64,000 bases of DNA. It comes from Chlorella sorokiniana. Its lineage: Eukaryota; Chlorophyta; Trebouxiophyceae; Chlorellales; Chlorellaceae. The stretch spans positions 62,001 through 126,000 of the forward strand of contig CP084614.1 in assembly GCA_025917655.1 (NCBI GenBank), written 5' to 3'. Each line of letters opens with the position of its first letter. Positions within the stretch are counted from its first letter, which is position 1. Below are positions 58,589 to 62,115 of the stretch, one piece after another. The notes beneath the pieces are model-generated. The model saw only the letters and a list, made by a program, of their open reading frames with translations, was not told the origin of the DNA and did no database searches. Position numbers and translations under genes: made by a program.

Positions 58589-60466
58589 TCAGCCGCTGTT
58601 GGCGGCGGCATTGGCGGTGGCGGTGGAGGTGCCGCCACCCTGGGCGTTGGCGTTGGCGGCGGCGTTGGCGTTGGCGGAGCTGGGGTTGGCGCCGCCGGTG
58701 GCGGTGGCAAAGGCCTGGGCGTTGGCCTGGGCGATGCTGAGGGGCACGCACTGGGGGTTGAGGGTGCCGGCGCTGGAGGAGGCAATCGCGCTGGCCAGGG
58801 CCTGTGCAGCAGCGCCCGCCCCGCCGGCCTGAGCAGAGGCGGCTGCAGGGGGTAGGGGTGTGGGGGCGAGGGAGGGCGGTGGTGCCAGGAGCTTTCTTAC
58901 CCGTCAAGACCCTCTGTGCATCGAGCGACGGTGCAGGGCAGGCGGGCTGCACAAGAGCCGGATGCCCCCTCTTACGAACCCCCCCCGCCCCCGGCCCCCG
59001 TCTGATCTCACTTGCGAGCGCCGCCGCAGTCTGGCCGGGCACTGGCCGCAGGCGCCGGTGACGCCCTGGGCGATTGCGGAGGCAAAGGCGTTTGCGCTGG
59101 CGGCGCCGCCGTTGCCGGAGGCCTGGGCCTGGGCAGGGGAGGAGGGAGGGGAAGCCGGGCGGGGGCGAGTGAGCGCGCTGATAGCAGGCTCAGCAAGATG
59201 CACGCAGTGTAGCTGTGGGGGGCCGGGGGAGCTGGAGGGGCACCATGTGGGCGCAGCTGCCGCCAGGTTTTTCTGCCCCTCACCAGAGCCGTGGCGAGAG
59301 CCTGGGCGCCGCTGATGGGGTTCTGGCAGATGGCCTGGGTCAGGCCCTGCAACAATCAACTTGAGAGGGAGGAGCTCGGCGGCGGCATGCGCGGCAAAGG
59401 CGGTTGGTGGGTGCTACGCAGCACCCAGGCTGGCGATCGGGCTGCTGCCGCGCAGCACACACCTGAGCAAAAGCGGTGGCGGAGGCCTGGGCCGCAGCGC
59501 CGCCCTGCAACGCAGGAGGGAGGTGCAGGATGCACAGAGTGCATGGATGGCGGTGTGGCTGGGCTGCCTTGCACAGCGGGACAGCTGGACAGCCAGCAGC
59601 CCTGCCCAGAGGGCCCACCCACCTGAGCGGACGCCTGTGCGGCAGCGTTTGCCACAGTTGAGCCTTGTCCCTGCACATCGGAGGGAGTGTGTGAATCAGC
59701 GCTGCAGTCTGTCAAGGTTTGCAGAGCCGCCGCTCTGGAGCAGATCTGGGCAGCAGGCTGGTACTGCAGGGCTGGCCCAAGCTGCCGCTGCGACCTTGTG
59801 CGCACCGTGCCCCGACACCGTGCACCCACCTGAGTGATGGCCTGAGCGGTGGCCTCCGCGAATGCGTTGCCCTGGCCTGCGAGGAGGAGGGGCATGAAGG
59901 ACAAGGTTCACGCGAGCGCTCCAGGCGGGCAGCTCTCAGCATGCCACTCCGCCGCCCACGCACCCGACGTCTGCGCGTTCGCGGCAGCATTAGCGAAAGC
60001 CGTGCCGCTGCCGGAGGTGACGGCCTCGGCAAAGGCGTTGGCGCTGGCACCCTGCAGGAGCTTGCGGTGCTCTGCAGGGGGTCAAGGGGGCAGCACAGCT
60101 GTCACACTGCACAGCGGGCGCCCAGCAGGCGGCGCCAGCAGCTGTGCTCCTGGGAAGAATCAACGATGCGCGTTCTCTGCATAAGCTCTGTAGCACCCTA
60201 ATAGCCCTCGTGCAAGGCGGTTGAGCAGGCGATCGCGGCAAGGAGCGAGCCATCAACCCGCCCGTCTTGATCTTGGACCAACCCACCACGCGCTCAACCG
60301 CGTACATGACTAGTTTCCGCACAATCAGAACACAGTGTATGCGTAGATGTGGGCAGCAGCTCGACAAGATTGCCCGGCGGGGCTGCCGATCCCCCTGCCC
60401 TCTCACCGGCGGCGGCGCCGTTCAGGCAGGCTGCCAGGAGCAGCAGGGAGACCAGGCAGAGCTTCA
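58589..60466 (-). CDS. Secreted Ala-rich protein of exon-encoded repeats
   Basis: Eight exons: 60466-60407, 60071-59964, 59876-59830, 59670-59623, 59504-59463, 59346-59284, 59128-59012, 58842-58589; about 245 residues. It starts with a classical signal peptide (MKLCLVSLLLLAACLNGAAA). The mature part is almost only Ala, Gln, Asn, Gly, Ser, Thr and Phe in A-x-A periodicity. Successive exons each encode one unit: SANAFAEAVTSGSGTAFANA, GQGNAFAEATAQAITQ, GQGSTVANAAAQASAQ, GGAAAQASATAFAQ, then SANAFASAIAQ. Internal exons are 42-63 bases and mostly phase 0, so units can be added or skipped without frame loss. Four cysteines occur (AICQNP, GACGQC, PQCVP). Periodicity suggests a beta-sheet or silk-like wall or matrix protein. 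No family was recognised. The frame is clean. Confidence 0.75.
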
Positions 60467-60876
60467 TTGCGGCAGTGAAGGATTGGATGACGATAAAATA
60501 GGAATATATGCTGGCCCGCGTGGGATGCGGCCCTGTTATCCGACTCCTTGGACTTTCCAGCCGTGTCAGGTGCATGAAGCTGCGCCAGTTGTCTGCCCAC
60601 AAGGGCACACAGGCCTCGTGGGCTATGCAAGGCATGCACTCGCCTTACAACCACCCTGTGCGTCTCGTAGCCCACGGGGCGTTAGGCCTGAACAGCAACG
60701 GTTTGCCCAGTGTGCCAACCCCCGCCGCTCCCGGGCGCTTGAGCTCGCAGCTGGGATGCTCAACTCACACCCTTGCTCAGTCTTCCAGCTTGAACTCAAG
60801 CTTTTACAGTGTTTAATGCAATTACAACAGTTAATGCTTGACCTTCTGCAAGCCTCAGCCTTCACTAATGGCCCCC
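60467..60876. other. Intergenic gap, tandem (-/-)
   Basis: About 410 bases: the promoter of the Ala-rich gene, with a TATATA-like stretch about 40 bases before its start near 60507, and the 3' UTR of the next secreted protein. No gene-like frame. Confidence 0.35.
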
Positions 60877-61937
60877 TCACAGCGAGGCCACACATACCGC
60901 TCCTCGCCCTGCCCCGCCCTCCACGCCGCACTCGCCGCCTTCGCCTCCGAGCGTCGTGTCGTTGTCACTGCTGGCGGCGGCGGCGGCGCTGGCTGGCTGA
61001 GCTGGGGGATCTGCAGCGGCGGGTGCCGGCGGCGGCGGCGCCGCGGTTACGGTGAAGGAGCGGGAGCGGTCGTCCCCGGTTTCAGGCGGATTGGCCTGCA
61101 CCACCATGTAGTACCTGCATGAGGCAGTACACGTACGGTATTTAAGTATGCAGGTACTTAATCAGCACGCGTGTTGGGTCAGCACGGGTTCAAGCCCCAC
61201 AGGAGCAGAGTGCCAGCTGACCAGCACCGCCGCTGCCGATCACAATGCCGCATAGCCATGTGGCTCCCTGCCTCCTTCACTGTGCCCCATCCACCCCCTC
61301 CCTTTCCACTCACCAGTGTCCCGCCACGGTGTCGACATCCACGCCGAAGCCGTGGGCGCCTGTGGCGCAGGGGCGGTAGCCCTGGGGCAGCGAGCACCAG
61401 CAGCGCTCGGCAGCCGCGTCGGCGCCGTCGCGCGTCTCCAGCGGCCGCGGGCAGCCCACAAGCCAGAAGTTGTGCAGGAAATGGCCAGAGTTGCAGATGG
61501 AGAACGTCAGGGGGCCGCTGTTCATGCCTGCCCAGTACGCCAGCACCAGCTTCCGCTGCCCGGCAAAGGTGGCGGGGGAGTAGCCGCAGACGCCCGCCGC
61601 CGCGTCGGCCAGCAGCAGGTGCCCGGCCGCTAGGCTCAGCGGGCGCGTGGTGGTGCCGTTGTGCACCATGATAGCGCTGGTGAAGTCGCCTGCGTGCAAG
61701 AGGGCGGCATGAAGGAGTGAGTCAGCCGAGGATCCCGCAACAGCGGCGCCGTCCAGCGCCTGCTGCCCTCCCATGCTGGGCTGCATCCCCTAAGCGGCGG
61801 CTTGCAGAAGCCAGCGTGTACTGCGCTGCACTTCTGCTGTGAATTCATACACGCCTCGCCCGCGCACCTGCAGGAAAAGCATGGCCGCGTGCAACGGCGA
61901 GCGCCAGCAGCAGCGACAGAGCGAACCGGGGACGCAT
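60877..61937 (-). CDS. Secreted cysteine-containing protein, unknown family
   Basis: Three exons: 61937-61868, 61689-61314, 61114-60877; about 228 residues. The start MRPRFALSLLLALAVARGHA is a signal peptide with cleavage expected near AFPAG. The main exon encodes a compact domain with FTSAIMVHNGTTTRPLSL, ADAAAGVCGYSPATFAG, YWAGMNSGPLTFSICNSGHF, LHNFWLVGCPRP and ERCWCSLPQGYRPC. This gives about seven cysteines, consistent with disulfides, and N-glycosylation sites. After YYMVVQANPPETGDD a Pro/Ala/Gly-rich tail follows to the stop. I do not recognise the domain. It lies head-to-tail with the Ala-rich secreted gene; a shared extracellular role is a guess. A hairpin spans the 3' splice site of its second intron. 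Confidence 0.7.
61110..61158 (-). promoter_or_regulatory. Hairpin enclosing the 3' splice site of the secreted protein's intron 2
   Basis: Arms AGTACCTGCAT (61110-61120) and ATGCAGGTACT (61148-61158) are exact reverse complements with a 27-base loop. On the gene's strand, the acceptor CAG/GTACT lies inside the 3' arm, so folding of the pre-mRNA would bury the splice site. The regulatory role is inference. Confidence 0.55.
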
Positions 61938-62115
61938 GCTGGTGCGATGACGAAAAGAGAGTCGAGCGCGGCTTGAGGTCACCGATCAAGACCCGCCGCA
62001 CCATCAATCCGCCCTGGGGCTCACACCCCGCCGCCGCCGCTTCCTGGTGCAGAATTTCCGTGCTCCTCTCAACACTGGCACCTAAAAGTTTGCCTCTTCT
62101 CAATTATGATCGAAT
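61938..62115. promoter_or_regulatory. Short divergent promoter region
   Basis: About 180 bases between the secreted-protein start (-) and the aldo/keto reductase gene model start (+). AT-rich near 62095-62120. Shared regulation is likely if the plus start is right. Confidence 0.3.

Follow-up and report, generated by a model that had tools for sequence, protein, structure and literature searches.

The genome of the green alga Chlorella sorokiniana holds a genuine set of proteins, secreted by prediction, whose alternate positions are taken by alanine or glycine over long stretches; the set is under selection where this is testable and is probably structural. What is new here is that one genome has several such similarly designed loci and that purifying selection acts on three of them. 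The member that we describe in most detail lies in a window of 64 kb, the whole stretch of DNA that was analysed (C6:62001-126000), while its relatives were sought in 38.8 Mb of genome sequence distributed over 15 contigs. Chances are about even that its product is secreted, associates with itself and has a structural role, as part of a small, similarly built set in this genome. That these are beta-sheet-forming proteins of the wall, the matrix or a glue is plausible, the beta structure being a prediction from the pattern of their residues.

Gene Model in the Window

The gene runs on the minus strand from an ATG at 60467 to a stop codon ending at 58589 (window positions), and its spliced frame comprises eight exons and 241 residues, with GT-AG borders at 7/7 introns. 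Its product begins with a leader, followed by the basic-Leu motif EHRKLLQ and then by repeats rich in Ala. Exon 1 (60407..60467) contains the ATG and the leader MKLCLVSLLLLAACLNGAAA, which by eye has the look of a signal peptide, as the initial annotation had claimed; it passes from phase 0 to phase 1 at the donor GTGAGAGG, and the acceptor of exon 2, TTGACCCCCTGCAG, is in frame with it. Upstream of the ATG, a TATA-like stretch on the same strand (60503..60509) was recognized by eye as a candidate. Exon 2 (59964..60071, phase 1 to 1) carries the EHRKLLQ motif and the first alternating stretches. Single units are encoded by exon 3 (59830..59876; GQGNAFAEATAQAITQ, its first residue split with exon 2), exon 4 (59623..59670; GQGSTVANAAAQASAQ) and exon 5 (59463..59504; GGAAAQASATAFAQ). 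Exon 6 (59284..59346) reads GLTQAICQNPISGAQALATAL, and its Cys-Gln-Asn element is also found in two of the relatives presented below, C6:140k and C1:2266k. Exon 7 (59012..59128) reads AQASGNGGAASANAFASAIAQGVTGACGQCPARLRRRSQ, with the donor CAA|GTGAGATC and an uncertain 3' end; its last part, GVTGACGQCPARLRRRSQ, departs from the alternating pattern. Exon 8 (58589..58828) is an open frame of 79 residues plus the stop codon, entered through the acceptor TCTGCTCAG at a frame-compatible site. The junction between exons 7 and 8 is the least certain and weakest point of this model.

The initial annotation had described consecutive exons that each encode one unit of 14-21 residues. This is accurate for four of the eight exons, 3 to 6, which encode 15 residues plus the split one, 16, 14 and 21 residues, but not for exons 2, 7 and 8, which are longer (35, 39 and 79 residues). 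Likewise, the exons were thought to be mainly of phase 0, which applies to five of the seven introns but not to the first two, of phase 1 (1,1,0,0,0,0,0). Of the repeat then proposed, the A-F-A part stands, since all six Phe of the translation lie in A-F-A (6/6).

Two features of the neighborhood deserve mention. The next gene, also on the minus strand (window 60900-61940), looks secreted (MRPRFALSLLLALAVARG...) and has several Cys and a C-terminal stretch rich in Pro, Ala and Gly; a Pfam search with its exon model, at a threshold of E 0.01, found nothing. On the plus strand, an exon at about 57316-57422 matches PF02826, the NAD-binding domain of D-isomer 2-hydroxyacid dehydrogenases, at E 3.8e-5, just under the curated cut-off.

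Relatives in the Same Genome

Protein searches of the alga's own genome retrieved no fewer than seven other gene-like loci with this design, as well as two decayed copies. The gene-like loci are C8:1331659-1330477, C9:507536-508673 (C9:507k), C9 about 1041.8-1042.85 kb (C9:1042k), C6:139748-142687 (C6:140k), C4 about 840.1-842.6 kb, C1:2266577-2267500 (C1:2266k) and C1 near 2215.4 kb (C1:2215k). The decayed sequences are partial copies of the C6:140k relative, situated at C6:156.7-158.2 kb and 159.8-160.7 kb, and a stretch resembling a retroelement gag, recognized by eye, lies between them (C6:156.7-160.7 kb). The C8 and C9:507k relatives adjoin matching neighbor reading frames (1327-1335 kb and 504-512 kb, respectively) and thus appear to lie within a segmental duplication.

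A hydrophobic leader is seen by eye in seven of the eight gene-like loci, the start of the eighth not having been located, and these proteins are predicted to be secreted. Directly after the leader, all eight have R-x-L-x-[Q/A], in the form of RKLLQ in the window gene, RKLLA in the C8 and both C9 loci, RHLLQ in C6:140k, RRLQQ in C4, and RRLHQ and RQLQQ in the C1 loci. Such a constant basic motif, together with the RRR in exon 7, could indicate a secreted precursor that is cut at either place to release small Ala-rich peptides for defense or signaling. We consider this improbable, as RRR was not seen in the repeat regions of the relatives that were read and an alignment of four members has no single conserved peptide that stands out.

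Across the set, the proteins are Gln/Asn-rich and range from about 195 to over 400 residues. The C6:140k locus has a Gly/Gln-rich linker ahead of a Cys-rich tail. A Cys-rich C-terminal module, SCFGFxRxxCC...CVCAG, is common to C6:142231-142687 and C4:842227-842625, and this tail of C6:140k and C4 is without Pfam match.

How closely are these loci related? With the window gene as query, significant matches were limited to C8 and C9:507k (E 1.3e-6), C6:140k appearing at E 1.83 only. With C6:140k as query, C4 was found at E 3.3e-20 and C1:2266k at E 0.27; C1:2266k in turn retrieved C1:2215k at E 1.3e-4, and the C8 copy retrieved C9:1042k at E 4.4e-39. The close group, the C6/C4 group and the C1 pair are thus well supported, and their joining with the window gene rests partly on common architecture in Ala-rich sequence, in which the E-values that link loci are hard to judge. 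One common ancestry is not proven, because the direct link has E 1.83 and the stepwise link E 0.27, and Ala-rich composition can mimic kinship.

Other matches were set aside. Two additional DNA-level matches in the same genome were simple repeats; the weak protein matches to the window gene at C9:1400k and C1:4153k had scattered single motifs only; the match at C8:9061 gave an empty alternation scan; and matches on C12 and C13 were judged by eye to be non-members. A further weak protein match in the genome, C9:1960k, stands outside the eight gene-like loci.

Alternation of Small Residues

The mature part of the window protein (221 residues) has 33.5% Ala, 12.2% Gly, 10% Gln, 9.5% Ser, 7.7% Asn and 2.3% Pro, with four Cys, none of which is at its C-terminus. 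Ala follows Ala at distance 2 2.04 times as often as expected and at distance 1 0.53 times, the former value being reached in 0/2000 shuffles; this excess bears out the earlier description of a repetitive, silk-like sequence in which small residues alternate. Alternation of A/G extends over 13 positions at most, which 5 of 2000 shuffles reach, and a cruder alternation score over 21 residues is weaker (reached in 28/1000 shuffles). When scanned for alternation, the 64 kb window gave a signal only at this locus. It covers exons 2, 7 and 8 and appears on either strand, since the reverse reading of GCN codons encodes alternating Ala as well. The repeat being readable in both directions, it is the leader, together with splice sites and relatives, that settles the strand.

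Ala or Gly at alternate positions, up to 24 in succession, is the signature of the whole set. Six stretches were shuffled (the window gene, two parts of the C8 copy, C6:140k, C4 and C1:2266k), and in all six the distance-2 excess of Ala was reached in none of 2000 shuffles. The longest A/G alternations in the two C8 parts (21 and 24) and in C6:140k (20) were equally beyond the shuffles (0/2000 each). C4 and C1:2266k alternate more loosely, their longest runs being reached in 134/2000 and 31/2000 shuffles, and the depletion of Ala at distance 1 is absent from C4 (821/2000).

An alignment of nine stretches has A or G in every second column and GxG about every 16. The unit of the best-ordered members has 16 residues, G-x-G-x-A-Z-A-x-A-x-A-x-A-Z-A-x, where Z stands for bulky residues, often eight apart. 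A pattern search for this unit in six members gave 16 units: two in the window gene, six in the C8 parts, six in C9:1042k, two in C6:140k and zero in C4 and C1:2266k. The pattern fixed G1, A5, A7, A11 and A13, so that only the remaining positions are informative; position 6 is occupied by L, F or I in 10 of the 16 units, near-identical copies being counted twice. Bulky residues are eight apart in 3/6 and 5/13 spacings of the two C8 parts and in 0/10 of the window gene, which is among the less regular members.

From alternation over long stretches, a requirement of silk-type sheets, we infer a silk-like folding. In extended strands, one face would be flat, with Ala and Gly, and the other would expose Gln, Asn, Thr and Ser with spaced Phe, Ile, Leu and Val. 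The small-residue faces would pack sheet to sheet, as in silk, while the polar face would form hydrogen bonds or bind wall polysaccharides. The GxG recurring at 16-residue spacing may be the turn of a hairpin or coil made of two 8-residue strands, and the few Cys may tie molecules to each other. Such chains would make up a fiber, a sheet or a glue, rich in beta sheet, within the cell wall or the extracellular matrix. An ice-binding protein could also have small residues in regular arrays of this kind, if they lie on a beta face as presumed. Known ice-binding solenoids present a uniform Thr array, whereas the residues found here between two Ala are mixed (n=282, near-identical copies included: T 47, Q 41, A 31, S 29, L 24, N 21), which makes ice binding barely credible.

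Selection, Frame and Units

The three close copies C8, C9:507k and C9:1042k are under purifying selection. Over 561 bases, their three pairs have dN/dS values of 0.165, 0.180 and 0.105, and third codon positions account for 24/32, 28/39 and 24/31 of the differences. This count omits the third exon from its start to a frame break (gap included) and keeps the 66 bases after it; within the omitted part, third positions are favored too, with 7/10 between C8 and C9:507k. The result covers the C8/C9 copies, the window gene being without a close copy for such a test. The break itself is of one base, in a G run after AQAIAR, and is common to C8 (between 1331012 and 1331008) and C9:507k (between 508152 and 508156), while the frame of C9:1042k is open at this site; it is either a true common lesion or a common sequencing error.

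These data bear on the explanation that the window gene is no functional gene but GC-rich low-complexity DNA resembling coding sequence by chance. Such repeats do yield alternating Ala on the opposite strand too, two copies are frame-broken, two C6 copies are decayed, and the window gene itself falls outside the selection test. This explanation nevertheless seems very improbable, given that exons of the window gene have 73.0% GC against 66.5% in its introns (GC3 0.847), that seven GT-AG introns are present, that the differences between the close copies fall mostly in third positions, and that one of these copies, C9:1042k, has an intact frame.

C9:1042k also lacks 54 bases, or 18 residues, inside one exon and in frame. 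As 18 is an even number, alternation is preserved; as the loss lies within an exon, units can change without introns. The relatives hold up to 95 repeat residues per exon, so that the architecture of one-unit exons, central to the initial annotation, does not extend to them. An origin of the repeats by shuffling of one-unit exons was rejected in view of these multi-unit exons, the loss of units within an exon, and the dissimilarity of the introns, since comparison of the window gene introns among themselves gave no convincing similarity (best pair E = 0.002). How, then, did introns come to lie at unit borders? Three of the seven in the window gene are exactly at the Gln-Gly codon pair CAG|G, which we take to be a proto-splice site and which occurs 16 times in its coding sequence, always in phase 0. 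Because the introns are unlike each other, they may perhaps have arisen from this site and not by exon duplication.

Searches for Homology and Structure

The initial annotation knew of no described algal family with this design, and none was found in the open-licence literature. A match to a known family was likewise absent from the searches conducted here: Pfam gave zero families for the window protein at E up to 10, curlin profile included, and single-sequence searches of PDB returned zero chains for the window protein and for the C9:1042k relative. The scanned pieces of the relatives gave only a chance-level Pfam match to TFIIA (E 9.4). When PDB was searched with a profile of the units, the best match was the Ala-rich tail of ribosomal protein eL29 (E 0.00041), from which it follows that the profile can match by composition alone; the 10 chains retrieved (eL29 forms, engineered hemoglobins and a nanocage) were read as composition or chance. 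With the C9:1042k protein as query, prokaryote genomes and viral contigs gave 595 and 113 pattern matches, 0 of which were confirmed, and phage records gave zero matches.

Structure prediction, which the initial annotation had recommended as a check, pointed weakly away from stacked beta sheets: AlphaFold2, applied to exon 8 alone as a single sequence, returned helices at low confidence (mean pLDDT 54). Ala, Gln and Glu, moreover, favor helix, which counts against the beta reading. The proteins could then be secreted Ala-rich backbones, unfolded or helical, that act as spacers or carriers of sugar chains and form no beta sheet. Their composition rich in Ala, Ser and Thr would agree with this role, and so would the linker and Cys-rich tail of C6:140k, next to which the Ala region might be a mere stalk. 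We regard this possibility as somewhat doubtful, since the strict two-residue periodicity of all six stretches has no obvious use in helix or coil, and proline, at about 2% only, is far from the level of known algal wall glycoproteins, which are proline-rich.

Comparison with Known Structural Proteins

Silk-like secreted structural proteins are a functional kind and not one homologous family. Of their features, the algal set has the leader (7/8 by eye) and the alternating repeats, weaker in C4 and C1:2266k. Close likenesses include insect silks, chiefly the cross-beta silk of lacewing egg stalks, which is secreted, rich in Ala, Gly and Ser, and repetitive, with sixteen-residue hairpin repeats. 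The egg-stalk silks of lacewings have a Cys-containing motif in common at their C-terminus (PMC5485732); five of the eight algal loci end in AACF, AACK or ANCT, the window gene not among them. The likeness is one of description, across phyla, and homology is not claimed; beta structure is only predicted on the algal side, and the algal proteins differ in being short and Gln/Asn-rich.

Curlin, a beta-solenoid of the curli type, is also built of short repeats in which small residues alternate, with Gln/Asn and turns at Gly, but its unit has about 22 residues as against 16 here, and the window protein does not match its Pfam profile. The hydroxyproline-rich wall glycoproteins of green algae are likewise secreted, low-complexity, modular matrix proteins; their repeats are proline-rich, unlike the window protein with its 2.3% Pro. 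In a review on the green-algal matrix, a search for the terms amyloid and alanine gave no occurrence (PMC10762512). Low-complexity proteins of Gly, Ala, Ser and Thr with silk-like repeats can be adhesives, as a paper on barnacle cement shows (PMC5099703).

In its strongest form, the structural reading would make this set an undescribed green-algal silk, that is, a multigene family whose alternating Ala/Gly units build a cross-beta wall fiber or an amyloid glue, and would make its products candidate proteins of the amyloid adhesives reported in green algae; we consider this form unlikely. Amyloid adhesives do occur in green algae, and we know of no protein identified in them. One review describes pleated beta-sheet, amyloid-like complexes that serve as glue in Prasiola linearis (PMC6628237, citing Mostaert 2006, 2009), and extracellular, proteinaceous, beta-sheet-rich adhesives also in unicellular subaerial green algae (PMC6628237). 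The present set differs in being known from its genes alone, so that adhesive behavior would be a prediction, and the likeness is drawn from descriptions of the adhesives and not from their sequences.

If the proteins form beta-sheet fibers, single-celled algae would have a silk-like material system whose genetic definition is compact, and the unit of the best-ordered members, short and regular as it is, would be simple to express and study. The loci would then provide a list of genes to be compared with the amyloid-like adhesives of green algae. They would also add a protein to the picture of tough algal walls, which are mostly discussed as polysaccharides.
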